A stretch of DNA of 64,000 bases from a virus. The stretch covers positions 1 to 64,000 of IMG/VR virus record IMGVR_UViG_3300017708_002392, one strand, 5' to 3'. Position 1 is the stretch's first letter. Each line of letters opens with the position of its first letter. Shown here piece by piece: positions 17,774-61,203 of the stretch. Below the pieces are notes generated by a model. That model was not told where the DNA came from, did not search any database, and was given only the letters and a program-made list of their open reading frames with translations. The position numbers and the translations under genes are program-made.

Positions 17774-18267
17774 TATAAATTTTTTAAAATATTTTCCGCT
17801 GTTGATTGATCTATGTCTTTTTCGTCTACAAACATTGTTGTGACTTGGCCGTCTTCTATTATTGCCGCAAAACGTTTGCAACGATTTCCAAGTACACCCA
17901 TGTCTGTTGCTAATCCTATTTGTTCAGAAACTTCGCCAAATGGATCAGCGGCCATTGTAATCTCTGAACCTTCATGATTCATATAATCATCAAATGCAAT
18001 CATCACAAATGGATCATTCATACTCATACAGATAATTTCCTGTATTCCTTTCTTGTACAATGCTCTTTCATGCTTGATAAAACCAGGCATATGTTTTTCT
18101 GTACAACCTGGTGTAAATGCTCCAGGAATTCCAACCAGCACAACTTTGCGATCACCTATGTATTGATCTATGTTGTGACCTTCAAACGGAGGTCCTTCTT
18201 CATCGTGTGTTGGTATGAATACTTCTCCTGTTGGCATACCATAACTGTGAAATTCAAATAATGACAT
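17773..18267 (-). CDS. Peroxiredoxin (Prx5/AhpC-TSA type)
   Basis: The 164-residue protein has the Prx5 active site GAFTPGCTEKHMPGF (49-63) with peroxidatic cysteine C55, and the later MSMNDPFVM and GVLGNRCKRFAAII segments typical of atypical two-cysteine redoxins. It reduces peroxides, possibly protecting Fe-S enzymes during infection. Length matches bacterial Prx5. It is followed by the DUF115-like gene through a TAATG overlap. No Shine-Dalgarno sequence is evident. Confidence 0.9.
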   Translation of the reverse strand: MSLFEFHSYGMPTGEVFIPTHDEEGPPFEGHNIDQYIGDRKVVLVGIPGAFTPGCTEKHMPGFIKHERALYKKGIQEIICMSMNDPFVMIAFDDYMNHEGSEITMAADPFGEVSEQIGLATDMGVLGNRCKRFAAIIEDGQVTTMFVDEKDIDQSTAENILKNL

Positions 18268-29783: not shown

Positions 29784-30224
29784 TTAAAAATTTTGTTTCT
29801 TCTTGGCAAACTGTTTGCCGAACCCGCCACCTTTTAGGCCTTTATTTTTGAACTCTTTTTCTTTGGCGTTGATCTGATCAATCATTTGCGACAACAATCC
29901 ACGCACATATTTAGAGTTGGGTTTTCCATTTTGCACAATTTTGTCTGGTTCAACATTCAAGCCAAAACTTTTGATACCTGCCTTTTTGCCCACTTCTTCG
30001 GCCCAATCAGCAAAAAATGGAGCCACTGCTATGTCAGGATTATCATTCAACTTTGCATTAAGTTTTTTGTTGAAATCATTCAACATGGTTTCCATGTCTT
30101 GCAATTTTGCTGTGAGTGGAATGGGTCCCTTTAGTGTATCTCCAGCTTGCCCAATACCTTGTGCGGCTCTGCCTAGTGCGGCACCAACTCTGGGATCATA
30201 TTCAAATAGGTCTAATAGTTTCAT
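29784..30224 (-). CDS. Hypothetical late protein (146 aa)
   Basis: The 146-residue product has an N-terminal MKLLDLFEYD motif, as do several virion-associated genes here (MQLFEFF, MKTFREL), a glycine/alanine-rich region, a helical middle and a very basic C-terminus. A virion or core role is likely but unproven. It has a perfect TATAAATA box exactly 6 bases before the ATG, predicting a leaderless late mRNA. Confidence 0.6.
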   Translation of the reverse strand: MKLLDLFEYDPRVGAALGRAAQGIGQAGDTLKGPIPLTAKLQDMETMLNDFNKKLNAKLNDNPDIAVAPFFADWAEEVGKKAGIKSFGLNVEPDKIVQNGKPNSKYVRGLLSQMIDQINAKEKEFKNKGLKGGGFGKQFAKKKQNF

Positions 30225-30229
30225 ATCAA

Positions 30230-30237
30230 TATTTATA
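30230..30237 (-). promoter_or_regulatory. T4-type late promoter box TATAAATA
   Basis: Last A (30230) is 6 bases before the ATG at 30224. The box overlaps the stop codon of the upstream chaperone-like frame. Confidence 0.75.
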
Positions 30238-30463
30238 GTAAAGGCATTTTTGTAGTCTTAGTAAGCTCTATGTTGTCTTTTACAAGTTCAGCCATCATGG
30301 ATCTATCGTCAGGTCCTAGCAAAAATGCTGTATTATAGTCCAACGATCCACGCATGTACCAACACAGTTTGATCAGATCATTCTTGAAATTTTTGTTTGT
30401 GTTTTCTAGTTCTTTGAAATATTCTTCCAGTTCAGAAGGCGAGAGAGTTAGGATCTTGATACG
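30233..30463 (-). CDS. Tail-chaperone-like frame reached by -1 frameshift from gp26
   Basis: A 76-codon open frame follows gp26 but has no ATG, GTG or TTG near its beginning; the first ATG falls in its middle. Its sequence is protein-like: LSPSELEEYFKELE, then WYMRGSLDYNTAFLLGPDDR, ending MPLL. This resembles the small second product of frameshifted tail assembly chaperones and the cyanophage gp51-type protein. It is in the -1 frame relative to gp26 and is continuous with it after the slippery T TTT TTC (30469-30463), so the likely product is a gp26 fusion. Confidence 0.6.
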   Translation of the reverse strand, partial: RIKILTLSPSELEEYFKELENTNKNFKNDLIKLCWYMRGSLDYNTAFLLGPDDRSMMAELVKDNIELTKTTKMPLL

Positions 30464-31311
30464 AAAAAATTGGAGTTATCCATGGAGATAGGTTGTTCAA
30501 AACTTTTAGGTGCTCCTTTTTCTATCTGTTCTTTGGTTGGAGTTATTGTGATAGGCTGTATTTTGCCGATTCCTTTTTGTGCATCTAATCTTTTCTTAAT
30601 CAAGTCTGCAGTAGCTCCATCCATGTTGTCTACAAATTCTTCGATGTACACACGATCAGTGATGGTCTGGCCATCTGCGGTCACTTCAAGTATAGATTCT
30701 TTCATGTTTGCTAGAGTCAAATCAGTCATATGGCCAAATATCTCTGCAAATTTTTCCTGTTTTTGTGATGCATTTAATTCATTGGTATCAATCACTTGTG
30801 AAATAATTCTTTGTTGCTCAAAAGTGCGTAATTGCAAATTGGTAAGTTGTCTATAACTCATTGGTTTGATTTTGAATGAAACATCTTTGGCAGGCACATA
30901 TCCATCAAATTTTGTTTTATCAATTTTGTCTCCTGCTGTACGCAGATCGACATTGTAGGTCACTTTATCTTCGGTATTAGGAACAGTAACAGTTATATCC
31001 ATCATGTGTCCATAAGTTGCAATTCTGATGGCAATCATTACAGAGTCTAAATCCAACACCGGCATCATCCACGGATCTTGTATGCCTGGCACACATGATC
31101 GGATAACATTCACTGTGGATTCTCCGTTGAGCAGTGCATCAGGTGTGTTCATGGTCATTTCATCTTTTGCAGTCATTGGATACACAGCAAGTTCTTTCTC
31201 ATTGTCAAACACCAATGCTCCTTGCGGATACCAATCGCCACCAGATGGTAAAGTTGTGTATATTGCTGGTTGCCTAAAGAACTTAGCTAATGGGTTCTGT
31301 GGATTGGTCAT
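30448..31311 (-). CDS. gp26: Baseplate hub / tail assembly protein gp26-like
   Basis: The 287-residue protein has the start seen in gp26 of marine T4-like phages (NPLAKFFRQPAIYTTLPSGG...WYP), MTAKDEMTMNTPDALLNG (about 47-64) and CVPGIQDPWMMPVLD. It lies back to back with the tape-measure gene. T4 gp26 acts in central baseplate hub assembly; position and frameshift signal also suggest a tail-tape-measure chaperone. The last codons contain the slippery heptamer. Expression is from a CATAAATA late box 33 bases upstream, with GGAG before the ATG. Confidence 0.8.
   Translation of the reverse strand: MTNPQNPLAKFFRQPAIYTTLPSGGDWYPQGALVFDNEKELAVYPMTAKDEMTMNTPDALLNGESTVNVIRSCVPGIQDPWMMPVLDLDSVMIAIRIATYGHMMDITVTVPNTEDKVTYNVDLRTAGDKIDKTKFDGYVPAKDVSFKIKPMSYRQLTNLQLRTFEQQRIISQVIDTNELNASQKQEKFAEIFGHMTDLTLANMKESILEVTADGQTITDRVYIEEFVDNMDGATADLIKKRLDAQKGIGKIQPITITPTKEQIEKGAPKSFEQPISMDNSNFFVSRS
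30463..30469 (-). other. Slippery heptamer T TTT TTC (-1 frameshift site)
   Basis: In gp26 frame the codons read AAT TTT TTC, giving the X XXY YYZ pattern. A -1 slip keeps Phe-Phe pairing and enters the 76-codon frame. The normal gp26 stop follows four codons later. Confidence 0.6.
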
Positions 31312-31361: not shown

Positions 31362-33368
31362 ATGGCTGGATTTAAAGAGATTAACATAGAAGACATATCG
31401 GTCAAGGTCCCTGATCAGGGATTTGCATCTGAAGAAACTCTACAAGAATTGGTAAGAGCACTGGGTGGTCGTACTGCTGGCGGTGGTGCCGCTGCCGGTG
31501 GAGCCAAGGCAATGGCCGGAGCCACAAAAGGAGCGGGCAAAGATGTAAAAGCATTTGGTAAGTCTTTGTACAAAATGAATCCTGCTCTTACAGCTTTGGA
31601 AACTGGTTTCAATTTGCTAGGCAACACAATTACTGGTACAATGGGTTTGATAAAGTCGATGGCCACAATGGATGGCAGTTTTGAATCTTTGAATTCGGTA
31701 GTGGATTTTGGTGTTGACCAAATCACAAAATTTACATCAATGATTCCTATATTGGGTGGGTTGCTGACAGCGGCAGCTGAAACCACCGGAGAAATGATGA
31801 AGTTAAGATTAGCATTCATGCAACTTCAACAAGAATCATTCCAAAAATTAGCAGACACAGGTTTGAGACTGAGCGGTCCTCAAGGTTTAGGAGGAACTCT
31901 TGAAACAGCACTTAGAGCCAACATCAGTATAGAAACGTTTGGAAATTTGGTGATGGAAAATGCTGATGGGTTGAGAATATTTGGTGGAACAATCAACAAC
32001 GCGGCAGCCACTTTCGCCACTCGTTTAAAAGCTTTAACTGATCAAAACTCTGAAGTAGGCATGGGGTTACGGATGCTGGGTATGAATTCAACTGCGATTG
32101 CTGAAGAGTTCACTGATTTTGTTACAACAAACAGATTGAACTCTGCATTGATGACAGGCGGTGAAAAGCAGTTGAATAATGAATTGTTGAAACGTTCCAA
32201 GAATGAAAGAATTATTGCTGAATTGACCGGCAAGAACATCAAAGAACAACGTGCGGCACAAATGGCAGCTGTGGCCGATTCTGCCTTCCAGGCAGCTATA
32301 GCAGGCATGGGAGAAGAGGGGGCAGAGTTGACCACGTTTGTGGCAGGATTGCCGGGACCAATAGGTGATGCTGTGAAACAGATTATTGCATTTGGCACAG
32401 TGACAAATGAGGAGTCAGCAAGACTGATAGCAACTATACCAGGGTTGAGAGAAACACTGGAAAACAATATTGAAGGTATCAAAAGCGGCAATGTCAGTTC
32501 AAGCAAAGCAGTGGCAGACACAATCCAATTGGGGCAGAATGCAATTGAAGACGGCAACGGATTGTTCCTAGCAAAACTTGCCATGATTGATCCTGCCTTC
32601 CAAGCAGTGGCGGATTTCATCATGCAAGGTAGAGCATCGTCAATACAGTTGAAAAATATCAACGACGTGTTAGACGAAAGTTTCACTGATCTCGGTGACG
32701 CTCAGGCAGCCTTCAATACAGCACATGAGTCGCAACTTAAAACAGCAGAAGATTTAGCTAGGACAGGCAAATTAACTGAAGAAAGACTTAGAGAAGAAGG
32801 CATTACAGATGACAAGACAATTGCCATATTGTTGAATGCAGTGAAAGTGGAAGATGCTGTGGGATCGTTTCAAGCAGGTTTGTTTGGAGCAGTCAACAAC
32901 CTTGATTTGCTTGATGTTGCAATCGATGGACTGATAGACACAATGAATGATGCAATAAGGATGATTGATCCCAACTATGTAGGCCCGAATGAGTACAGGA
33001 AAAACAATAGCAATAACGATTTGTCTTTAGATGAACTACAGAATATGGCAGGAGCCGCTGAAAACGGTTTGATGAATGCTGGGTTTATGAATGAATTCCG
33101 TGTCAATGAAGCCAAGAAGGAATTAATAGCAAGTGGAGTAAGCGAAAGGAGAGTTAACAGTGCAGGTGATGACATGACACCTAATCAGATCAAAGAATAT
33201 GATGACAATATGAAAAAGGTAGTAGAGAATAGTGGATACACAAATGACCCACTAGGGTATAATGATAAAGTAGACATGACAACTACTAATGACTTATTGA
33301 TTGATGTCAATAAAAATATCAAAAAACTCCATACAGTAATCCACCCAGGCCTAATGGAAAAAAAGTAA
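31362..33368 (+). CDS. gp29: Tail tape measure protein (gp29-like)
   Basis: A 668-residue protein with a Gly/Ala-rich segment (36-56), amphipathic and hydrophobic central helices (NLLGNTITGTMGLIKSM; MIPILGGLLTAAAETTGEMM) and long helical A/E/K/L-rich regions, as in tail-length tape measures. It lies next to gp26 as expected for T4-type tails, where gp29 sets tail length and forms part of the hub. The family is inferred from composition, size and position; direct sequence motifs are few. It has no Shine-Dalgarno sequence. Confidence 0.65.
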   Translation: MAGFKEINIEDISVKVPDQGFASEETLQELVRALGGRTAGGGAAAGGAKAMAGATKGAGKDVKAFGKSLYKMNPALTALETGFNLLGNTITGTMGLIKSMATMDGSFESLNSVVDFGVDQITKFTSMIPILGGLLTAAAETTGEMMKLRLAFMQLQQESFQKLADTGLRLSGPQGLGGTLETALRANISIETFGNLVMENADGLRIFGGTINNAAATFATRLKALTDQNSEVGMGLRMLGMNSTAIAEEFTDFVTTNRLNSALMTGGEKQLNNELLKRSKNERIIAELTGKNIKEQRAAQMAAVADSAFQAAIAGMGEEGAELTTFVAGLPGPIGDAVKQIIAFGTVTNEESARLIATIPGLRETLENNIEGIKSGNVSSSKAVADTIQLGQNAIEDGNGLFLAKLAMIDPAFQAVADFIMQGRASSIQLKNINDVLDESFTDLGDAQAAFNTAHESQLKTAEDLARTGKLTEERLREEGITDDKTIAILLNAVKVEDAVGSFQAGLFGAVNNLDLLDVAIDGLIDTMNDAIRMIDPNYVGPNEYRKNNSNNDLSLDELQNMAGAAENGLMNAGFMNEFRVNEAKKELIASGVSERRVNSAGDDMTPNQIKEYDDNMKKVVENSGYTNDPLGYNDKVDMTTTNDLLIDVNKNIKKLHTVIHPGLMEKK

Positions 33369-60609: not shown

Positions 60610-61203
60610 ATGAAAACATTCAGAGAACTATTAGCCGAATCAACTAAAACTTATGCAGTCCGTGTAAAGATTGCAGGTGACTTGCCAGAAGCATTTGAGA
60701 AAAAATTTAAAGACTACATGACAAAGTATGAAGTGGTTGAATTCAAGAAGGTTGGTAGCACGCCAGTTCAAGAACACCCACATGAATTTCCAAGAATAAA
60801 AAATAAAGAAGTAGCAATATTTGATGTTGAAACATCTTATCCTATTTCATTTCCGCAACTTGAAGGTGTACTTGCTGAACATTTTGGAGTATCAGCTGAT
60901 CACATAAGAGTTAAACATCCTGCAGACGTAACAGAAATTATGCCTGACGATGAAGGCGAGTATGAGTCAAAATTAATGGATGGTGAATACAAAGATTCAC
61001 CAAAAACAGAGCCAACTTTTGGAGATGAGTACAACATGAGTCTGTTTAAAGAATTAATGAAGGATCGCTCAGAACAATCTGCAACACAAGAAGCAGGCAA
61101 ACTGGTAAGCATGGGTGACGAGCAAGGCGAAACCATGTTTAAACGTACAGATGCTAATCCAGATGGCGTACAAGCTGGATCACTTACAAGACACTCCAAA
61201 TAA
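60610..61203 (+). CDS. Conserved structural-region protein (197 aa)
   Basis: Begins MKTFRELLAES, like many virion proteins of these phages. An alpha/beta domain follows (YAVRVKIAGDLPEAFEKKFKDYM; AIFDVETSYPISFPQLEGVL), and a charged C-terminus with EYNMSLFKELMKDR. The two ferredoxin-like beta-alpha units hint at a small folded domain, but no family is named. It lies between gp16 and gp17. Confidence 0.6.
   Translation: MKTFRELLAESTKTYAVRVKIAGDLPEAFEKKFKDYMTKYEVVEFKKVGSTPVQEHPHEFPRIKNKEVAIFDVETSYPISFPQLEGVLAEHFGVSADHIRVKHPADVTEIMPDDEGEYESKLMDGEYKDSPKTEPTFGDEYNMSLFKELMKDRSEQSATQEAGKLVSMGDEQGETMFKRTDANPDGVQAGSLTRHSK

Follow-up and report, generated by a model that had tools for sequence, protein, structure and literature searches.

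In the stretch of viral DNA analyzed here (the window, 64,000 nucleotides forming part of the 69,942-base virus record IMGVR_UViG_3300017708_002392), a gene 26-like reading frame very likely undergoes a conserved programmed −1 frameshift, which would yield a short and a long tail assembly chaperone (TAC), termed TAC-N and TAC-NC. We hold with high confidence that gp26 and the −1 frame form such a chaperone pair, in which TAC-N is gp26 itself and TAC-NC is the 359-aa frameshift fusion. The programmed frameshift is strongly supported by the conserved heptamer, by the homology of the −1 frame from the Phe-Phe of the slip site onward, and by the selection on that frame. The locus comprises the following elements.

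Positions 30448 to 31311, minus strand: gene 26-like TAC-N, 287 aa, 0 frame, with its TAA stop at 30450-30448.
Positions 30463 to 30469, minus strand: slippery heptamer T TTT TTC in the gp26 0 frame, read from the sequence.
Positions 30233 to 30469, minus strand: −1 frame coding for TAC-C, FFRIKILTLSPSELEEYF...MPLL stop, 78 codons including the shared Phe-Phe.
Positions 30236 to 31311, minus strand: predicted fusion TAC-NC, 359 aa, as implied by the heptamer together with both open frames.

The last codons of gp26 read ATG GAT AAC TCC AAT TTT TTC GTA TCA AGA TCC TAA (M D N S N F F V S R S stop) and contain a heptamer of the X XXY YYZ type, located inside a 28-nt overlap of the gp26 and −1 frames. 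Starting at the heptamer, the −1 frame stays open until a stop at 30235-30233 and translates as FFRIKILTLSPSELEEYFKELENTNKNFKNDLIKLCWYMRGSLDYNTAFLLGPDDRSMMAELVKDNIELTKTTKMPLL. Its 76 codons beyond the shared Phe-Phe, added to the 283 gp26 residues through the second Phe, make up TAC-NC. The first ATG, GTG, or TTG in this frame is an ATG at 30355, mid-frame and 95 nt past the gp26 stop. The preliminary description had reported a heptamer within AAT TTT TTC at the gp26 end (30469-30463, minus strand) and a 76-codon −1 frame with no usable start before its middle; these coordinates and frames are correct. Two-letter heptamers with a −1 extension of at least 40 codons occur at three places in the whole window: the gp26 site, one place opposite a gene, and one running into a normal downstream gene. 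Three overlapping heptamers also cluster where a redoxin-like gene ends (17776-17788, minus strand); an ordinary gene overlap is likelier there because the following frame has its own ATG (MALSEYKGEE).

The window gp26 is a homologue of T4 gp26/gp51. It matches Pfam PF12322 (T4_baseplate; E = 1.2e-9, 38.6 bits, above the curated cut-off of 24.5) and PHROG 150 (baseplate hub; E = 9.4e-13). Its AlphaFold2 model (mean pLDDT 84) matches predicted T4-like baseplate hub assembly chaperones and gp26 of Aeromonas phage 25 in BFVD. By tblastn, the nearest named gp26 relatives are jumbo phages, among them Atu_ph07, Phosso, CBB, GAP32, PA5oct, and 121Q, at 26-30% identity. In the alignment of gp26 proteins (A3), relatives carry zinc-finger-like cysteines (CPxC...CxxC) that are missing from the window protein around residues 109-118 and 255-265; a CPKC motif is also present in T4 gp51.

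The site is conserved far beyond the closest relatives of the window. We collected 42 loci that carry it, 29 of them distinct by shared 12-mers (30 counting the window), from metaviromes, Rhizobiales jumbo phages, the 121Q, GAP32, CBB, and PA5oct groups, and a number of classical T4-like groups. This non-exhaustive set reaches down to ~25% amino-acid identity in gp26. In all 42, the T TTT TT run lies in the gp26 0 frame, 10-40 nt upstream of the gp26 stop, and all 30 distinct loci have it at the same place, encoding xFF near the gp26 end. The heptamer is TTTTTTC in 28 of these 30, TTTTTTT in one, and TTTTTTG in one. The residue before the two phenylalanines varies (N, S, H, Y, or D), and its codon ends in T throughout. 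Across 8,110 gp26 codons there are only 32 in-frame TTTTTT runs, 30 of which are this site. Under each gene's own codon usage, the joint probability of the codon choice (a T-ending codon followed by TTT for Phe) is ~10^-16.6, a figure that is overstated because the loci are treated as independent. With all 30 distinct loci agreeing on its position, a chance heptamer is ruled out.

The preliminary description had named, as evidence against frameshifting, relatives that combine a normal start codon for the second frame with loss of the heptamer. We find the heptamer in nearly all relatives and no conserved start codon, although in some members an ATG occurs within the first few codons of the frame. 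Two other gp26 genes that we retrieved, from the T4-type phage AS-gz and Pseudomonas phage Cygsa01, lack the site. The Cygsa01 gene ends AGC ATT TTC ACC TAATG, without a T TTT TT heptamer, and its hub-catalyst frame begins at the ATG overlapping the gp26 stop; this phage possibly represents a switch from a frameshift to a separate gene.

The −1 frame encodes a conserved domain, TAC-C, that measures 59-79 residues across the site-carrying loci. By tblastn, its relatives comprise 24 viral contigs together with phages Atu_ph07, Phosso, and Vibrio 2.275.O. In the alignment of this family (A1) and in the sampled loci, homology begins exactly at the Phe-Phe of the slip site. Purifying selection acts on the −1 frame: its dN/dS is ~0.06-0.25, and substitutions between the window and the related locus L005 are concentrated at third codon positions (5/2/19). 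The AlphaFold2 model of the window domain is helical (pLDDT 82) and found no match in structure searches; a W-Y-M-R-G motif marks the domain in the closest group. The window −1 frame matches no PHROG, and eight A1 members match PHROG 18291, a family of unknown function. All six classical T4-like −1 frames (P-SSM5, phiAS5, S13, LG08, RL38J1, and VmeM-32) match PHROG 634, "baseplate hub assembly catalyst". Between the A1 family and the classical family (A2) there is marginal similarity (hhalign probability 11%, E = 0.003), and between A1 and T4 gp51 none was detectable. The window TAC-C, at best weakly similar to the T4 gp51 C-terminus, would probably do the same job.

Elements that might stimulate slippage differ between lineages. 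The window has no stable stem downstream of the heptamer (z ~+1.7 for 60 nt), nor do its closest relatives, and there is no Shine-Dalgarno-like stimulator upstream of the heptamer in this lineage. The window heptamer may thus act alone or with an unrecognized element. A sister metavirome group carries an 11-bp stem that starts 6 nt past the heptamer, with 98.9% of cells paired; it is visible as the inverted repeat GCCTAATTAGA...TCTAATTAGGC in L006, L010, L012, L013, L016, L019, L020, and L021. Covariation in this stem is slight, and a repeated LIRL/LIGL peptide also constrains the stem and could explain it. The repeat is a candidate frameshift stimulator of the sister group that is absent from the window lineage.

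The slip site consists of six consecutive Ts (seven in VmeM-32), on which RNA polymerase could itself slip: a U added within the T6 run would cause some mRNAs to fuse gp26 in frame to the C-terminal domain, giving a nearly identical protein. Six Ts, however, are short for efficient slippage by a bacterial polymerase, and the run is not longer in AT-rich relatives. TTC also closes the heptamer in 28 of 30 loci even though most of these genes use TTT more often for Phe, and the stem 6 nt past the site in the sister group fits a ribosomal stimulator. On this evidence transcriptional slippage is improbable. An error of one base in the assembly or sequencing of the T run could likewise split a single gene in two, T runs being error-prone, but the same arrangement in 30 distinct loci, including many independently sequenced isolates, refutes this account and leaves it a negligible probability.

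It is also very improbable that the two frames are separate genes, with the second translated from its own start by coupled reinitiation or from a non-canonical codon and no fusion made. Such an arrangement would suit the ATG found between −1 and +23 nt relative to the gp26 stop in 121Q, Phosso, Atu_ph07, and GAP32, and annotators do call a separate ORF at that place in relatives. The position of a start codon is nevertheless not conserved across the loci, and the PA5oct frame contains no start codon at all. In the window, the first ATG falls within a long conserved helix. Homology that extends back to the two phenylalanines at the slip site, together with a heptamer kept nearly everywhere, also speaks against separate genes.

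For the favored programmed −1 frameshift, we infer that slippage occurs, how often it does so, and which partners are bound, as follows. The majority of ribosomes would terminate at TAA and release gp26 as the short chaperone, TAC-N. In a minority, tRNA-Phe in the P and A sites on U UUU UUC would move back by one base, so that these ribosomes would bypass the gp26 stop and append the 76-residue helical TAC-C to form the 359-aa TAC-NC. Many short and few long copies would then coat the tape measure protein, in the manner of lambda gpG/gpGT, with tail tube subunits brought in by the C-terminal domain. The virion would need to contain neither TAC-N nor TAC-NC.

The slippery heptamer of lambda gpG/gpGT is G GGA AAG, which differs from the T TTT TTC of the window. 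The overall scheme is alike: lambda also makes a short chaperone and, at low level, a −1 frameshift fusion (review PMC5009743). A fusion of the lambda G/GT type was what the preliminary description had envisaged, and the conservation of the heptamer and the open frame strongly supports it. Another parallel is the TAC locus of Pakpunavirus Adele (PMC12846349), which has a conserved −1 frameshift at an invariant poly-T (GTTTTT) at the TAC-N end and a second frame usually annotated as hypothetical; it belongs to another phage family, however, and its tape measure gene lies directly downstream.

Frameshifting of this kind has precedents among T4-like phages, of which the preliminary description was unaware for T4-type gp26. 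Vladimirov, Gautam and Davidson (2022, Virology 566:9-15) identified TAC genes of T4-like phages, and later papers credit that work with poly-T −1 frameshift signals in TAC-N genes (PMC12846349) and with the observation that some T4-like phages use separate short and long genes instead (PMC10885494). The frameshift described here is thus not new in kind, as far as the work is represented in these accounts. As credited there, the shared features are a gp26-family TAC-N, a poly-T −1 site near its 3′ end, and a short −1 C-terminal domain, and the six classical T4-like loci that we examined have the same site as the window. The window lineage differs from the classical phages in that it belongs to jumbo-size lineages, its TAC-C is longer (71-79 versus 59-64 residues) and only marginally similar, and its candidate tape measure gene is transcribed away from gp26 instead of lying downstream of it.

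T4 itself represents the two-gene arrangement. PF12322 matches both T4 gp26 (8.8e-64), which is thereby homologous to the window gp26, and residues 1-201 of T4 gp51 (3.9e-52), while PHROG 634 matches gp51 residues 147-246, so that gp51 consists of a PF12322 domain plus a C-terminal domain. From these matches, gene 26 of T4 encodes the short form and gene 51 the long one, and the six classical T4-like relatives can make both forms from one gene; in T4 the two are separate, oppositely oriented genes with no frameshift. The abstract of the Vladimirov study reportedly describes T4 genes 26 and 51 in this way too. This contrast between a two-gene and a one-gene layout agrees with what the later papers attribute to Vladimirov et al. 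(2022).

A broader evolutionary scenario, to which we give about an even chance, is that the T TTT TTC frameshift at the gp26 end is ancestral to the whole T4-related assemblage including the jumbo phages, that the separate genes 26 and 51 of T4 are a later replacement by duplication, and that the jumbo TAC-C (PHROG 18291 and the WYMRGG family) is a new or greatly diverged type coupling to a different tape measure protein. With the present analysis, the recently described class of frameshifted tail chaperones from T4-like phages also takes in jumbo-phage and metavirome lineages that lack such annotation. There, the second frame is either entered in databases as a truncated hypothetical protein or overlooked. 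Such genomes could be re-annotated by a rule based on one heptamer, T TTT TTN where gp26 ends.

The finding also points to the neighboring virion protein as a candidate for the tape measure.

Positions 31362 to 33368, plus strand: 668-aa neighbor of gp26, divergently oriented; tape measure candidate.

This protein belongs to a family encoded between gp26 and the portal gene gp20 and conserved beside gp26 in metavirome and jumbo phages. Profile-profile comparison matches it to the corresponding ORFs in IMG/VR relatives (E = 9e-12) and to equivalent jumbo-phage ORFs annotated as virion structural protein (E = 1e-5), and detects no similarity to T4 gp29; tblastn found no relatives of it in the phage collection. 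The jumbo versions are filed in PHROG 14121, head and packaging. That it is the tape measure protein is plausible but unproven, a guess from its position and size. The preliminary description had placed the frameshift beside the tape measure gene: a gene of a virion protein family is indeed adjacent, whereas its identity as the tape measure is not established, given its divergent orientation and the lack of similarity to T4 gp29.

Several ORFs in the window and in sister loci begin with short N-terminal tags ending in (L/I)xE, similar to prohead protease sites of the T4 type. The ORF that immediately follows the −1 frame, at 29784-30224 (minus strand), starts MKLLDLFEYDP; elsewhere in the window, 60610-61203 starts MKTFRELLAES. 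Nearby ORFs in the sister loci L020 and L022 start MKVYEIISES or MKIYEIISEA.
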